Below are positions 15,310-23,120 of a stretch of DNA of 64,000 nucleotides, in pieces. Position numbers and translations under genes: made by a program. Source of the DNA: Kineosporia succinea (GTDB lineage: Bacteria > Actinomycetota > Actinomycetes > Actinomycetales > Kineosporiaceae). Within the stretch, counting starts at the first letter, position 1; every line of letters begins with the position of its first letter. Location: positions 6,817,241 through 6,881,240 of the forward strand of contig NZ_JAUSQZ010000001.1 in NCBI RefSeq assembly GCF_030811555.1, given 5' to 3'. The notes under the pieces are model-generated. The model saw nothing but the letters and a program-made list of their open reading frames with translations, was not told where the DNA came from and did not search any database.

Positions 15310-16194
15310 ATGAGCGAGCCCCGCACCGTCCTGATCACCGGCACCAGCACCGGTTTCGGGCGCCTGACCGCCGAGACCCTGGCCCGGCGCGGCCACCACG
15401 TCATCGCCGGACTGCGCGACGTGAAGGGTCGCAACCGGACCGCCACCGCCGAGCTGACCGCTCTGGCCGGGAACGAGGGTCTCTCGCTCGAGGTGATCGA
15501 GATCGACGTGACCGACGACGCGTCGGTGACCCGGGGCGTCCACCATCTGCTCACAACCACCGCCCGCCTCGACGCGGTGATCAACAACGCCGGCCGCAAC
15601 TTCGCCGGCCCCCTGGAGGCGTACACGGCCGCGGAGGCCATGCAGCAGTTCGACGTCAACACCCTCGGCGCGCTGCGCGTGAACAACGCCGTGATCCCGT
15701 TCCTGCGTGAGCAGGGCCACGGCGCCCTGATCCAGGTCGGCTCGCTCAGCGGCTGGGTGACGCCGCCGTTCAACGGCCTGTACGCGGCCAGCAAGGCCGC
15801 ACTCGCCTCGCTCACCGAGGCCTGGCACCACGAACTGGCGCCCTACGGCGTCGAATCCGTGCTCATCGAGCCGGCCGCCTATCCCACGAACATCGGCCAG
15901 AACGCGGCCATGCCGGCCGACCAGGAACGTCTCGGGCTCTACGGCGCCACCCTGGCAGCCTTCATCGGGGACATCACGAAGAACGCGGCCGCCCCGGGGT
16001 CGACCGCCGAGGTCAGTGACGCGCTGGCCGATCTGGTCGAACTTCCGCACGGCCGGCGGCCTCTGCGCACCCTGGTCGCGCCCGCCCGTCAGTTCGAGGC
16101 CGTGCGGGCCGTGCACGAGAAGGCGGCCGAGGCCACCCGGATCGTCGCGGAGGACATGGGGATCGACGGGTACCTGCGCCGGGCCCGGTCCTAG
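15310..16194 (+). CDS. SDR family oxidoreductase (TetR-controlled)
   Basis: A 294-residue classical SDR. The cofactor motif TGTSTGFG is at 11-18, NNAG of the fourth strand is present, and catalytic Ser/Tyr/Lys are in SLSGWVTPPFNGLYAASKAA. ATG 15310 has a GAAGGA site. The sequence resembles the oxidoreductases often found next to TetR repressors that clear reactive aldehydes or ketones. The substrate is unknown. It ends 17 bases before a hairpin shared with the convergent xylanolytic operon. Confidence 0.88.
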   Translation: MSEPRTVLITGTSTGFGRLTAETLARRGHHVIAGLRDVKGRNRTATAELTALAGNEGLSLEVIEIDVTDDASVTRGVHHLLTTTARLDAVINNAGRNFAGPLEAYTAAEAMQQFDVNTLGALRVNNAVIPFLREQGHGALIQVGSLSGWVTPPFNGLYAASKAALASLTEAWHHELAPYGVESVLIEPAAYPTNIGQNAAMPADQERLGLYGATLAAFIGDITKNAAAPGSTAEVSDALADLVELPHGRRPLRTLVAPARQFEAVRAVHEKAAEATRIVAEDMGIDGYLRRARS

Positions 16195-16211
16195 GCGGTC
16201 GCACACGCAGG

Positions 16212-16245
16212 GCGGTGCCGCCGGCCGGGTGGCCGACGGCACCGC
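16212..16245. terminator. Hairpin terminator between SDR and GH62 genes
   Basis: A 9-base stem GCGGTGCCG (16212-16220) and CGGCACCGC (16237-16245), with a GC-rich loop that can fold further, lies between two convergent stop codons. Confidence 0.65.
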
Positions 16246-16263
16246 ACGTGTGCTCAGGGATGC

Positions 16264-17742
16264 TCAGCGCTGCAGGGTCAGCAGGCCCGGCCGGTACGGG
16301 AGCAGGATGTACTCACCGCCCGAACTCGGCGAACGGCCCTGATAGAGCAGTTGCAGATTGCACGGGTCGACGGTCATGGTCTGATCCGCACTGGTGCGCA
16401 GCAGCTCACCGTGGCTGATGTCGTCGGTCCAGGTGGCGCCGCTGTTGGCCTTGCCCGCGAACGGGTTGCTCTCGCTCGTCGCCTGCGGGGTCCACGACCC
16501 CCCCAGGCTCGTGGCCGTGAACGACCGGAAGTAGCGCCGGTTGTTCGTGCCGATGGCCTCCACGATCATCAGGTACTGGTCGCGGCCCTGGAGCTTGTAG
16601 ACCTGCGGCGCCTCGAACAGGTTGTTCGTGGTGTCGCTCATCACCACGGTCGAGGTCGTGCCGAAGTTGCCCGGGAAGTTCCCGATCGGCATCGACGCCC
16701 GGTAGATCTTGCCGTTGTCCCCGGCGAAGAACAGGTACATGTTCGTGCCGTCACCGATCAGTGCCTGGTCGATGGGGCCGACGCCGGAGTCGGCGATGGT
16801 GCCGTTGAACAGGGGCTGCGCGGCCGACCAGCCGTTGGCGTTCGTGGGATCGGACGAGGTCCGGTAGGAGAACTTGGTCGGGCCCCACTGGTACGCCAGA
16901 ACCCAGATGTTCTTGGGCGCGAAGTAGAACAGGCTCGGCGCCACCGTTCCCGAGTTCATCGTGTTCTGGCTGGCACTCGCCAGGTCCGACCACTGAGAGA
17001 TCAGGCCGAAGTTCATCGAGCCCCAGGTCTTGCCGGTGCTGGCCGTGGTGGCGTAGACGAGCTGCTTGCCGTTGTAGGGCACGGTGGTGAAGTCCTTCAG
17101 CGACACCCAGCCGGACTTGGGGGTGGCCAGCGCCCCGGTCGAGCTCCAGCGGTAGGTCGAGGGCAGCGCGCACCCGCCGGGGGTGGAGCCGCCCCCGCCG
17201 ACCGGAACCAGCTGCCACTGCTGGTTGGTGCCGTTGGCGTCGTCGTACTGCACGACGTTGCCGCCGTCAGCGGTCGAAGCTCCCTGCACCTCGAGGGCTT
17301 TCCCGCTGTTGCGGTTGATCAGCTGGACGAACCCGTCGACGTCCTGGATGCTGAACTGCTGGTTGGCCGCGTTCAGGTCCGTCCACTGCACCACCGAGCC
17401 ACCGTTGGCCGTCGACCAGTTGTAGACGTCGAGCACCTTGCCCGACAGCCGCGACTTCAGCCGGTAGTACCCGTCGCCCGACGAGACGAACTGCCACTGC
17501 TGCTGGCTGCCGTCGTTACGCGTCCACTGGGTGATCCGCGCACCGTCGGTGGTGGCCAGGTTGTACACGTCCAGCGCCTTGCCGCTGTTGCGGTTGACCA
17601 GGATGTACGAGGCGTTGGTGTCGATCGTGGCGGCCGAGGCGCTGGTGGGCACGAGCACCGTGAAAAGCCCGGCGGCCAGGGCGGTCACGGTGACGGCGAC
17701 CAGGCTCAGCCAGGGCCGGCCGCGCTGGTGACGTGTTCTCAT
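16264..17742 (-). CDS. GH62 alpha-L-arabinofuranosidase with N-terminal CBM13
   Basis: A 492-residue secreted enzyme: signal peptide (1 to about 38, ending SASA), a ricin-type beta-trefoil CBM13 (about 45-175, three YxLxNRxSGKxLDV-like subdomains with QQW motifs), a Gly-rich linker and a GH62 catalytic domain (about 190-492; [20 protein letters not shown] and [12 protein letters not shown] are typical stretches). GH62 enzymes release arabinose side chains from arabinoxylan. ATG 17742 has GGAGGA 6 bases upstream. It follows the GH10 xylanase by 41 bases in the same direction, so the two form an operon. Its CBM13 is almost identical to that of the xylanase. Confidence 0.92.
17209..17619 (-). 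repeat. CBM13-coding repeat, copy in GH62 gene
   Basis: About 411 bases align without gaps to 17799-18209 (offset 590). By hand count about 23 positions differ. The 154-base block 17342-17495 is identical to 17932-18085. It encodes the beta-trefoil module of the GH62 enzyme. Confidence 0.88.
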
Positions 17743-17783
17743 CGGTGTCCTCCGGACGTCGTTGTCGGTGGGCGCACGGCGCG

Positions 17784-19734
<1,951 letters not shown>

Positions 19735-21330
19735 GTGGCGCCAGCCGTTCCCTCTGACAGCGACGTGGAGATGCCGACCAGTCACCTGGATGAGACCGCT
19801 CGCGTCGAGGCGGCGCGGGCCGGAGACCGGCAGGCGCTGGAAGAGGTGCTGCGCGGGCGCCTGCCGTTCGTCTACACCATCGTCCGGCGGGCGATGGGCG
19901 GCAGCCCGGAGGTCGACGACGTCGTCCAGGAGACGATGCTCCGGGCGGTGCGCGAGGTGTCCCGACTGAGCCGCCCCGAGAGCTTCCGGGCCTGGCTGGC
20001 GGCCATCACGATCCGCCAGATCAGCACCTACCAGCAGCGGGACCGGCGCTGGGAGGCCCACACCACCGCCCTCGACGACCTGATCGGGCACGAGGGGTCG
20101 GACGCGTCGCTGAGCTCCCGTTTCGAGGACGTCACGGTGCTGCAGCTGCACCTGGCCGACCAGCGTCACCAGCTGGTGCGGGCCCGGGCCTGGCTGAATC
20201 CCGACGATCAGAGCGTGCTCTCGCTGTGGTGGCTGGAGGCCGCCGGCGAGCTGAGCCGGCCGGACCTGGCCGCGGCGCTCGGCGTGAGCGTCGCGCACGC
20301 CACCGTGCGCGTGCAGAGGATGCAGACCCAGCTCGCCCTGACCCGTGCCCTCGCCGCCGCGGTCGAGGCCCGGCCGCGGTGCGCCCGTCTCGAGGTCGTC
20401 CTGCGGGACTGGGACGGCCGGCCCGGACCCCTGTGGCGCAAGCGCATCCTGCGCCACACCCGCTCGTGCCGGGTCTGCCAGGGCGAGGCCAACGGCCTGA
20501 TCGCCCCTGAGACTCTCCTGCTGGGACTGGCCCTGCTGCCGGTGCCCGCCGCCCTGATCGGCAAGATCTCCCTGAGCGCGACCCCGTCCGCCGCCGCGAC
20601 CGCCGGCGCCGGGCCGGCCCTCAAGATCCCGTTCCTGCAGGCCGTGGCCGCCAAACCGGTGGCCGCCCTGCTGGTGACCGGCACCCTCCTGGGCGGTGCC
20701 GTCGCCGTCGTCCCCGACCGGCCGGGTCTCACGTCCACTCCCCCCGTCGTGGTCACCCTCCCCCCACCGGTGACCACGACGTCCACCATCCCGCCGACCC
20801 CTTCGGCAGCCGCACCCACCCCCTCACCCTCGAGGCAACAGGACGCCCGCCCGTCGCCGAAGACCCCGGCCCGGGCGACGCACGCCGCCAGCACGGTGAG
20901 ATCGGGAGTGCTGAGAGCCGGGCCGGTCTCCCTGGAGGCCGCCGACATCCCCGGCTTCTACGCCTCGACCAGTGCGACGTACGGAGTCCTGGAGCAGCCG
21001 GCATCCGCCGAGCGCGCCACCTTCGTCGTGGTCACCGGCCTGGCGAACGCGGACTGCTACTCGTTCCGCGTGGGCGACGGCCAGTACCTGCGTCACTCCT
21101 CCTGGCGGGTGCGCGTCGGCGACGACGACGGCACCGCGTTGTTCCGCGGGGACGCCACCTTCTGTGCCCGCACCGGCTCCGCGTCCGGCTCCGTCGCCCT
21201 GGAGGCGGCGAACTACCCGGGCTGGTTCCTGCGTCACCGCGACATGCAGCTGTGGGTGGACCAGGACGACGACTCGGCGCAGTTCCGGGCCGACAGTTCC
21301 TTCCGGGTGAGGGCTCCGCTGAGCGACTGA
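19735..21330 (+). CDS. Sigma-70 family factor fused to ZAS-like motif, membrane segment(s) and AbfB domain
   Basis: A 531-residue chimera. Residues about 20-95 form sigma region 2 (VYTIVRRAMGGSPEVDDVVQ, EVSRLSRPESFRAWLAAI). Region 4 lies at about 155-210 (LSRPDLAAALGVSVAHATVR). A zinc-type motif H241-TRS-C245-RV-C248 follows, matching the HxxxCxxC of ZAS anti-sigma factors. Hydrophobic stretches lie at about 259-281 and 298-323, then a Pro/Thr linker (329-385). A C-terminal domain (about 390-531) has AbfB/CBM42 repeats (SLEAADIPGFYAS, SVALEAANYPGWFLRHRD). AbfB domains bind arabinofuranose. Lying between xylanase and arabinofuranosidase genes, it probably senses arabinoxylan outside and directs transcription. 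GTG 19735 is chosen by GGGGAG; ATG 19771 is possible. Confidence 0.85.
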   Translation: MAPAVPSDSDVEMPTSHLDETARVEAARAGDRQALEEVLRGRLPFVYTIVRRAMGGSPEVDDVVQETMLRAVREVSRLSRPESFRAWLAAITIRQISTYQQRDRRWEAHTTALDDLIGHEGSDASLSSRFEDVTVLQLHLADQRHQLVRARAWLNPDDQSVLSLWWLEAAGELSRPDLAAALGVSVAHATVRVQRMQTQLALTRALAAAVEARPRCARLEVVLRDWDGRPGPLWRKRILRHTRSCRVCQGEANGLIAPETLLLGLALLPVPAALIGKISLSATPSAAATAGAGPALKIPFLQAVAAKPVAALLVTGTLLGGAVAVVPDRPGLTSTPPVVVTLPPPVTTTSTIPPTPSAAAPTPSPSRQQDARPSPKTPARATHAASTVRSGVLRAGPVSLEAADIPGFYASTSATYGVLEQPASAERATFVVVTGLANADCYSFRVGDGQYLRHSSWRVRVGDDDGTALFRGDATFCARTGSASGSVALEAANYPGWFLRHRDMQLWVDQDDDSAQFRADSSFRVRAPLSD

Positions 21331-21449
21331 CCGCGGCACGACCGGGCCAGACTCCCTGTGGTCCGAGCTCGATTTGACGTTGGCTTGAACCATGTCGGGA
21401 GTCGCCGACCGATGGAACGAATTTCACTGTCAGGCAGCACTTTTGATTG

Positions 21450-21479
21450 TTGACGCGCCCGCCGGTTCCGTTCTACCTT
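21450..21479 (+). promoter_or_regulatory. Candidate promoter of the GH30 gene
   Basis: TTGACG (21450-21455), an 18-base spacer and TACCTT (21474-21479) lie about 145 bases before the GH30 start. The rest of 21331-21622 shows no gene. Confidence 0.4.
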
Positions 21480-21622
21480 CGGCGCAGCGGACGCCGGCCG
21501 GGCACCGTCGTCGAGATCGATGCTCACGCACGCCCACCCTCGTTCCGGGTCGGGCCCCGGCCACTCGACCGACTCGTCCGCCGAAGCGCAGTCCTCAGAC
21601 CGCAGTCCTCAGGAGGCTCCCG

Positions 21623-22930
21623 ATGACGCAGGATCAGCACCGCCCAGGCCACCGGCCCCGGATCTGGGGTCGCCGGAGCGTCCTGACCGCGATGGGTGCC
21701 GTCCCCACGCTCGGGGTCGCCGCGGTCATGGTGGGCGCATCGTCGGCGTCGGCCCAGACCGCGTCCATCAACCCATCGGCCTCACGGCAGACGATCCGGG
21801 GTTTCGGGGCGATGACCCACGCGGCCTGGGTCGGTGACCTGACCACGGCCCAGCGGGAGACCGCGTTCGGCACCGGGGCGGGTCAGCTGGGCTTCTCCGT
21901 CCTGCGCATCCCGGTCGGCGAGAACCGCTCGGACTGGAGCCGCGACCTGGCCACCGCCCAGCGGGCGGTGCGGTCCGGGGCCATCGTCTTCGCCTCCCCG
22001 TGGAACCCGCCGGCGAGCATGACCGAGACCTTCACCCGGGGCAGTCAGACCAACGCGCGGCGGCTGAAGGCGTCGTCGTACGCCGCCTACGCGCAGCACC
22101 TGAACGACTTCACGGCCTACATGCGCGGCAACGGCGTCGACCTGTACGCCATCTCGATCCAGAACGAACCGGACTACGCCCAGGACTGGACCTGGTGGAC
22201 CACCGCGGAGATCACCCGGTTCCTGCGCGAGAACGCCGGCTCGATCAGCACCCGGGTCATCGCGCCGGAGTCGTTCCAGTACGTGAAGTCGATGTCCGAC
22301 CCGATCCTGAACGACGCCGCCGCCCTGGCGAACGTGGACATCATCGGGGCGCACCTCTACGGCACGCCGTACGCCAACTTCCCCTATCCCCTGTTCAAGC
22401 AGAAGGGGGCGGGCAAGGACCTGTGGATGACCGAGGTGTACCACCCCAACAGCAACGCCAACTCGGGCGACGCCTGGCCCGAGGCCCTGGACGTGGGAGA
22501 GCACATCCACCACGCCATGGTGGACGCGGAGTTCCAGACCTACGTCTGGTGGTACCTGCGCCGTAGTTACGGTCCCATGCGGGAGGACGGCCGGATCAGC
22601 AAGCGCGGGGCCCTGATGACGCACTTCGCGCGGTTCGTGCGCCCCGGGGCCGTGCGCGTCGACGCGACCGCCAACCCGGCCTCGGGCGTCTTCGTCTCCG
22701 CCTACCGCACCGGCTCCTCCGTGGTCGTCGTGGCCCTCAACACGAACACCTCGGCGGTGAGCCAGCAGTTCACGCTGGCCGGCACCGCTGTCTCCGGCAG
22801 CGTTTCGAACTGGCTGACGGACGCGAGCCGAACCGTCGCGGCGCAGAGTGCCCTGACGATGTCGAACGGTTCACTCACGACCTCGCTGCCCGCCCGCAGC
22901 GCCATGACCTTCGTCCTGCCGCTGGGCTGA
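21623..22930 (+). CDS. GH30 subfamily 8 glucuronoxylanase (XynC-like)
   Basis: A 435-residue enzyme with a Tat-type signal (GRRSVLTAMG, cleavage near SASAQT), a (beta/alpha)8 barrel and the side beta-domain. The acid/base is E182 in SIQNEPDY and the nucleophile E271 in LWMTEVYHP. YVWWYLRRSYGPMREDG matches the segment of Bacillus XynC that holds the arginine contacting the 4-O-methylglucuronate branch, so it should cut xylan next to glucuronate substitutions. ATG 21623 has AGGAGG 6 bases upstream; an in-frame extension further upstream is not supported. It is followed by a strong terminator. It complements GH10 and GH62 in attacking arabinoglucuronoxylan. Confidence 0.94.
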   Translation: MTQDQHRPGHRPRIWGRRSVLTAMGAVPTLGVAAVMVGASSASAQTASINPSASRQTIRGFGAMTHAAWVGDLTTAQRETAFGTGAGQLGFSVLRIPVGENRSDWSRDLATAQRAVRSGAIVFASPWNPPASMTETFTRGSQTNARRLKASSYAAYAQHLNDFTAYMRGNGVDLYAISIQNEPDYAQDWTWWTTAEITRFLRENAGSISTRVIAPESFQYVKSMSDPILNDAAALANVDIIGAHLYGTPYANFPYPLFKQKGAGKDLWMTEVYHPNSNANSGDAWPEALDVGEHIHHAMVDAEFQTYVWWYLRRSYGPMREDGRISKRGALMTHFARFVRPGAVRVDATANPASGVFVSAYRTGSSVVVVALNTNTSAVSQQFTLAGTAVSGSVSNWLTDASRTVAAQSALTMSNGSLTTSLPARSAMTFVLPLG

Positions 22931-22988
22931 TTCTCGGTCGTCCGGAGCAAGTCGCCGAACGACAGGGGTTCGAGGCCGAGATCGCCAC

Positions 22989-23025
22989 GGGGCCGAGGAT
23001 CCTGGTGCACCGGATCCTCGGCCCC
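22989..23025 (+). terminator. Strong hairpin terminator after GH30
   Basis: A perfect 14-base inverted repeat (22989-23002 with 23012-23025) and a 9-base loop lie 58 bases after the GH30 stop. Confidence 0.82.
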
Positions 23026-23091
23026 GCCGCGCCCTCGCGGTGGTCGCAGACGGGCCGCTCCCCCGGCTCGCACGAGGAGCTGAAGCCGGTC

Positions 23092-23120
23092 TGACATCTT
23101 CTTGACAAGTCCTTCACATC
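23092..23120 (+). promoter_or_regulatory. Direct repeat and -35 box upstream of the ABC operon
   Basis: TGACATC (23092-23098) and TCACATC (23114-23120) are 22 bases apart, two helical turns, as in OmpR-type regulator sites. A TTGACA hexamer lies between them (23102-23107). The response regulator encoded at 26949 is the natural candidate; no clear -10 was found. Confidence 0.3.

Follow-up and report, generated by a model that had tools for sequence, protein, structure and literature searches.

A 64,000-nucleotide stretch of the Kineosporia succinea genome (contig NZ_JAUSQZ010000001.1, positions 6,817,241 to 6,881,240; hereafter the window) encodes, at positions 19735..21330 of its forward strand, a 531-residue protein that joins an extracytoplasmic function (ECF) sigma domain, the signature of a zinc-binding anti-sigma (ZAS) factor, a membrane segment and an AbfB domain. 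We propose, with a probability of about 0.7, that this protein is a membrane-tethered, self-inhibited sigma factor, which would sense arabinoxylan outside the cell and activate both the divergent genes of glycoside hydrolase (GH) families 10 and 62 and its own gene. Fused sigma/anti-sigma factors with carbohydrate-related domains are already known (groups ECF52 and ECF53), and the window protein is a variant of that known kind.

What the fused sigma factors of the ECF52/ECF53 type sense and regulate is largely an open question, and experimental validation of their carbohydrate-related domains is said to be missing (PMC10766802). For the window protein one and the same polysaccharide is indicated by the sensor domain, by the enzymes encoded alongside and by a specific promoter element, so that ligand, target genes and promoter are each directly testable. 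With slightly more conviction than doubt, we also favour the view that the one-polypeptide sigma/anti-sigma unit (the 'chassis') is a general actinobacterial device, in which a swapped outside domain would often match the substrate of the controlled enzymes and class-specific -10-like elements would insulate paralogues. If this family-wide pairing is true, actinobacterial genomes would carry a readable code linking sensor domain, polysaccharide and promoter: one could tell the polysaccharide from the outside domain and the regulon from the promoter, and the chassis would be a modular basis for building polysaccharide-responsive switches.

Domain organisation of the window protein

A first-pass annotation, made from the sequence alone, had read sigma regions, a zinc signature, hydrophobic segments, a Pro/Thr linker and an AbfB domain in one 531-residue frame, and profile searches together with the sequence bear out each of these parts. 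The frame is a single open one, with a possible alternative start at ATG 19771, and all its features lie on the forward strand. The ECF sigma domain, with regions 2 and 4, occupies residues 34-200 (19834..20334), where TIGR02937 scores 55.6 bits against a cut-off of 42.9 (E 4.6e-15); sigma region 2 is also above the Pfam cut-off (Sigma70_r2, residues 43-105, E 2.9e-12), and the Pfam scan of the protein returned no separate match to sigma region 4. Behind it, the Hx3Cx2C signature of zinc-binding class I anti-sigma domains (ZAS/ASDI) is present as H241, C245 and C248, with C216 as the fourth candidate ligand (residues 216-248; 20380..20478), and is invariant in 18/18 aligned chassis rows. A zinc-finger model is absent from the Pfam matches of the protein; the spacing of C216 and H241-x3-C245-x2-C248 resembles that of the four zinc ligands of RsrA.

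Two hydrophobic stretches follow, at residues 256-280 (20500..20574) and 307-327 (20653..20715), the latter with a 19-residue Kyte-Doolittle maximum of 2.06. A linker rich in Pro, Ser and Thr (about residues 328-392; 20716..20910), mostly at a confidence score (pLDDT) below 50 in the predicted model, leads to a beta-trefoil of the AbfB or carbohydrate-binding module 42 (CBM42) type (about residues 396-528; 20920..21318), matched by the AbfB profile PF05270 at E 1.4e-39. Two cysteines of this domain are invariant in 28/28 AbfB-type rows. Sigma factor, ZAS-type inhibitor signature and AbfB domain are one polypeptide, and a chance fusion was rejected on the many homologues. In this the first-pass annotation was right; what it lacked was a placement among ECF52 and ECF53, where the architecture had already been described.

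A family with exchangeable C-terminal domains

The window chassis is a member of an actinobacterial family with an exchangeable outside domain, a finding that is new here. A chassis profile (A1) matched 51/394 genomes of the class at E 1e-25, and from a named genome collection the best 80 of 396 confirmed chassis matches were kept, mostly from Streptomyces and Micromonosporaceae. The genome of K. succinea itself holds three members, bearing AbfB (the window protein), beta-helix (L002) and Lcl_C (L003) domains. Sensor classes were named from Pfam scans of representatives together with clustering, and additionally by profile for AbfB; the C-termini fall into clusters of 38 CAP, 34 AbfB, 14 Glyco_hydro_cc, 12 with an unnamed domain, 11 beta-helix and 6 Lcl_C members, plus singletons that include a GH99 type (L085), and several short C-termini have no membrane part. 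When the AbfB label is mapped on a tree of 131 chassis rows, five gains or losses are required, at least four of them forced by well-supported branches, and the sensor has therefore been gained, lost or exchanged more than once.

CAP-like C-termini (PF00188 in L043) are the most frequent in this sample. Among the enriched neighbours of this class no clear matching enzyme was found, and GH10 homologues lie near only 2/22 CAP loci.

Sensor type and neighbouring enzymes

Divergent from the sigma gene lies a GH10 xylanase gene (17784..19412, reverse strand; PF00331 E 4.2e-111), the frame of which is overlapped by that of a GH62 arabinofuranosidase (16264..17808, reverse strand; PF03664 E 1.6e-149); both products carry a ricin-type lectin domain. 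Judged from the sequences, such pairing of sensor type with neighbouring enzyme type is found across the chassis family, which is new in this work. Neighbourhoods of up to 10 kb were counted at 99 of 101 loci, L044 and L046 being excluded for want of a called chassis gene; three further loci without one (L083, L093 and L037) were typed with the help of C-terminus clustering, and L057 was assigned to the AbfB group, its AbfB domain sitting in a following frame. GH10 homologues occur at 24/34 AbfB loci against 4/65 of the remaining loci, in which this chassis bears a different sensor or none, and GH62 homologues at 22/34 against 0/65. Because many of the Streptomyces loci are closely related, the test was also run on collapsed chassis, and GH10/GH62 then accompany 8/15 AbfB clusters against 1/20 others at 70% identity (p 0.0019) and 6/9 against 0/6 at 60% identity (p 0.017). 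A single frame matches both GH10 and GH62 in 17/33 AbfB loci, with Pfam confirmation in L098, the one examined.

Several other classes show the same kind of pairing. Homologues of pectinesterase or pectate lyase lie at 8/9 beta-helix loci and 0/90 others, six of the eight coming from one genus. Polysaccharide lyase family 11 (PL11) is found at 6/6 Lcl_C loci and, beyond these, only at L147 (AbfB and beta-helix); the six are all of one genus, and this pairing therefore counts as one case. Alginate-lyase-like genes accompany 4/6 loci with the unnamed sensor domain, as well as L087 outside that group, and the alginate-lyase-like neighbour at L148, of the unnamed-domain group, carries the family promoter described below. 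At one locus a chassis with a GH catalytic core (Glyco_hydro_cc) is paired with a thaumatin-like protein.

As a separate observation, a protein with ricin-lectin and BNR/sortilin-like parts (L051:13711-16356 and relatives) is encoded at 11/34 AbfB loci and 0/65 others; it is possibly a GH74-type xyloglucanase.

A candidate bipartite promoter element

The upstream regions share a bipartite, ECF-like element of roughly TTTnTGTTAYS, 16-17 bp and GTCKCC or a variant. By pattern matching, the window holds two candidate sigma-dependent promoters: GATTTGT-GTTATC-N17-GTCGCC (19622..19657, core 19629-19655, forward strand) for the sigma gene, and GAAAAGTT-GTTATC-N17-GTCG (19531..19565, core 19531-19557, reverse strand) for the GH10-GH62 genes. 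G001, G003 and G005 each have a match to the latter in the corresponding intergenic region. These two divergent sites, between sigma and GH10-GH62, are the only matches to GTTATCN{16,17}GTCG in the 64-kb window, where 0.06 would be expected. The whole 8.07-Mb genome has five (reversed control pattern, two), and a script found no gene start directly downstream of the other three, only the window pair having one; the stricter GTTATCN{16,17}GTCKSC has a single match in 8.07 Mb. The AbfB-type sigma factor is present in 4 of 6 genomes of the genus (G000, G001, G003 and G005), all four of which match the element in that intergenic region, and in G000 and G003 it faces both ways. In Streptomyces sp. 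WAC 01529 (8.3 Mb) a longer form, TTTTNYGTTAYSN{16,17}GYCTCC, occurs once, before GH10-GH62 adjoining the AbfB sigma gene.

A second bipartite pattern lies upstream of 15/27 GH10 genes of AbfB loci (reverse strand, 1), 19/98 sigma genes (reverse, 8) and 14/1373 other genes (reverse, 16), and the element is found by pattern at 27/191 immediate sigma neighbours (loci without a called sigma gene dropping out) against 2/966 genes at least three away; all these figures are optimistic, since the patterns were shaped partly on the same sequences, and they speak the less for our proposal on that account. As a check, a model was trained on non-AbfB loci only, from 12 non-redundant promoters of their sigma genes. 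It places the GH10 genes of AbfB loci above other genes (rank test p 3.5e-11), with 5/27 above the 99th percentile, and gives high ranks to an AbfB-bearing gene (L078), the thaumatin-like gene by the Glyco_hydro_cc sigma (L086), the alginate-lyase-like gene of L148 and the pectinesterase homologues of L091, L061 and L155; two of the top eight (L105 and L046) are without an identity of the polysaccharide-enzyme type. Before the AbfB-bearing neighbours in L076 and L083 the element was not found by pattern. As far as sequence patterns tell, the element stands before many of the cognate enzyme genes and, within the family, before only a minority of sigma genes, which is likewise new here.

The -35-like element, TTTnTGTTATC or close forms, is common to the classes, and the -10-like element differs, being GTCG for AbfB and GACTAC for beta-helix within the same genus. 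For the beta-helix paralogue in the K. succinea genome, the blocks that face a pectinesterase homologue are GTTATG and GACTAC (L144), and this different -10-like block could insulate the two systems. Word-pair enumeration yielded for the most part conserved Streptomyces DNA; the bipartite pattern was recognised afterwards. In the window no Rfam family was found at 16000-23000 at gathering scores, and no sigma-70 consensus promoter at 16000-23100.

The proposed link of the sigma factor to xylanase genes, as first annotated, thus gains from the shared divergent element in the case of GH10-GH62 and is weak for the GH30-like hydrolase gene downstream of sigma (21392..22930, forward strand; PF17189 E 8.8e-05, PF02057 E 5.4e-07), for which there is a loose motif found by eye. 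The likelier start of that gene, also by eye, is ATG 21623 after AGGAGG. Upstream of it, at 21440-21475, TTTTGATT-GTTGAC-N16-TTCTACC resembles the pectin-class form of the promoter; it was noted by eye and is not claimed as a promoter.

Proposed mechanism and alternatives

In the resting state the zinc anti-sigma domain, which follows sigma region 4 in the same chain, would keep the sigma factor inactive at the membrane, with the AbfB domain held outside the cell on its long linker. Binding of arabinofuranosyl side chains of arabinoxylan by AbfB would relieve the inhibition. Release would most likely occur by regulated intramembrane proteolysis, the route taken by IutY (PMC8999054) and put forward for ECF52 (PMC5826349); conformational change alone seems less likely. 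The freed sigma factor would guide RNA polymerase to A/T tract-GTTATC-N17-GTCG promoters and so switch on the divergent GH10-GH62 genes and, in positive feedback, its own.

A number of results weigh against this proposal. Neither GH10 nor GH62 lies near 9/34 AbfB loci, among which there are a GH43 gene (L041), genes that themselves encode an AbfB domain (L076 and L078) and a fucosidase-like gene (L105). The pattern GTTATCN{16,17}GTCG is not rare outside the intergenic region: it has 2-10 matches in each of the six genus genomes (reversed control, 0-4), including ones elsewhere or due to chance, and occurs also in G002 (nine) and G004 (two), where the AbfB-type sigma was not found; the longer form has 0 matches in S. 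scabiei, which has such a sigma factor. As to autoregulation, in G001 and G005 the strict match is directed at GH10 alone, and in the 12-promoter model only 1/33 AbfB-type sigma genes, that of the window, exceeds the 99th percentile of other genes (p 0.03), so that autoregulation is plausible in the window and not general among AbfB types. The predicted structure (overall confidence, pTM, 0.39, without inter-domain error) does not bear on the packing of the zinc domain on sigma, which in class I anti-sigma factors sets helix 4 against sigma-2 and helix 1 against sigma-4. Hydropathy, finally, allows two membrane helices, the first stretch exceeding 1.6 on the Kyte-Doolittle scale in 32/35 and the second in 22/35 AbfB types.

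That last point bears on a question the first-pass annotation had raised, namely on which side of the membrane the AbfB domain lies. Should both stretches span the membrane, as their values above 1.6 in the window protein would permit and as the one to two membrane helices described for ECF48, ECF52 and ECF53 (PMC8999054) might suggest, AbfB would be in the cytoplasm. Such a topology would place the net-positive loop between the stretches outside, yet the 12 residues before the second stretch have a mean net charge of +1.1 to +5.3 in six named sensor classes, CAP averaging +5.3, and the 12 residues after it -0.1 to -1.4; in a mixed 'other' class (n=13) both flanks are net positive. The Pro found inside the first stretch in 123/129 family members also counts against two crossings, and the families of the C-terminal sensor domains are mostly those of secreted proteins. 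The two invariant cysteines of the AbfB domain are a further point for its lying outside. An AbfB domain inside the cell was set aside on the flanking charge pattern, and we regard the two-helix arrangement as very improbable. The sigma-2-binding helix 4 of class I anti-sigma domains (PMC7406223) occupies a position matching the first stretch, which on hydropathy and charge is probably this helix and not a membrane helix; residues 307-327 would then be the single transmembrane helix, and the evidence leans towards AbfB outside the cell.

Granted an outside AbfB domain, it might be an anchor of the cell or of the sigma factor to plant material and not a sensor, the trigger being the redox state of the zinc site, envelope stress or protease supply. 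CBMs commonly serve as anchors. Zinc motifs are, moreover, enriched in the soluble members of the class I anti-sigma factors, in keeping with redox sensing (PMC7406223). An anchor need not vary, yet here the domain type changes with the type of the neighbouring enzyme, and several sensor types (CAP, Glyco_hydro_cc and beta-helix) are not CBMs, for which reasons we think an anchor unlikely. We would likewise give little credence to the suggestion that the intergenic elements bind another common regulator and that the sigma factor has different targets, such as development: SCO4117, of ECF52, affects differentiation and antibiotic production (PMC5826349). For this speak the finding that LacI-type regulators, others besides, and a CGAANNTTTCG motif are linked to xylan genes in Streptomyces sp. 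SirexAA-E (PMC12772271), and the fact that the element is unseen before the sigma gene itself in most AbfB loci. It has to account, however, for an element that is common to xylan, pectin, rhamnogalacturonan and alginate-lyase-like loci, whose common factor is the sigma chassis, and that keeps a 16-17 bp spacing and mostly points at a gene. We therefore retain the membrane-tethered arabinoxylan sensor as our preferred account.

Relation to known systems

The ECF52 protein SCO4117 of Streptomyces coelicolor unites ECF sigma, zinc finger, membrane segment, Pro-rich extension and carbohydrate-binding domain, and its proteolytic or conformational release has been proposed (PMC5826349); the window protein has the same architecture. 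Its sensor, however, is AbfB and that of the SCO4117 type NPCBM, and the motif reported for SCO4117, CSGYN-17-SRHA, is unlike the window element. L212, an NPCBM-bearing protein of S. scabiei and, from its domains, probably the SCO4117 orthologue, matches the chassis profile across its sigma and zinc domains at 28 bits, against 348 bits for the chassis family's own S. scabiei member, and has no extended BLAST match with the window protein (P0001). An ECF52 assignment by sequence was set aside on these scores, which speak against membership without settling it, as we infer the ECF52 standing of L212. The family's home is possibly ECF53, compared here by description: actinobacterial sigma factors that end in a zinc finger and one to two membrane helices and in some reported cases bear a glycosyl hydrolase or carbohydrate-binding domain (PMC8999054, PMC10766802). 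In their available parts, these two accounts do not mention AbfB/CBM42.

The nearest functional parallel is RsgI5, with CBM42, of the SigI/RsgI system of Clostridium thermocellum. That system uses two proteins, with a separate RsgI, another anti-sigma type and a self-cleaving periplasmic domain, whereas the window protein is a single polypeptide of ECF sigma and zinc anti-sigma; no RsgI-type periplasmic self-cleaving domain is among the Pfam matches of the whole window protein. IutY of Pseudomonas putida (ECF243), a sigma factor fused to a membrane-bound anti-sigma factor and processed by Prc and RseP (PMC8999054), resembles the window protein in this fusion but answers a siderophore via cell-surface signalling, not through an attached carbohydrate-binding domain. 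Among the matches listed in the open-licence literature, no report of an AbfB-fused sigma factor was evident by title or visible abstract.

Further variants of the chassis

The unnamed sensor domain (L012, L015, L016, L024, L048, L101, L116 and L118) is possibly polyuronate-sensing. Three members scanned (L024, L101 and L116) have no Pfam match to it, a PDB profile search with seven members, without L015 (A3), gave two unconvincing matches (best E 0.81), and its predicted model has a pLDDT of 49. In a well-supported sub-clade of eight chassis rows (L032, L042, L044, L046, L063, L067, L072 and L079) the frame ends soon after the zinc domain and contains neither membrane helix nor sensor; a GH95 gene lies near L063 and a GH5 gene near L042, and the sensor has perhaps been lost or turned into a separate protein. 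In genome G008, two members (L019 and L025) carry an extra domain ahead of AbfB on the chassis, which in L025 has a weak GH32 likeness (20.6 bits, below the Pfam cut-off of 22.1), and an enzyme-like domain and a CBM may thus stand together on one sigma factor.
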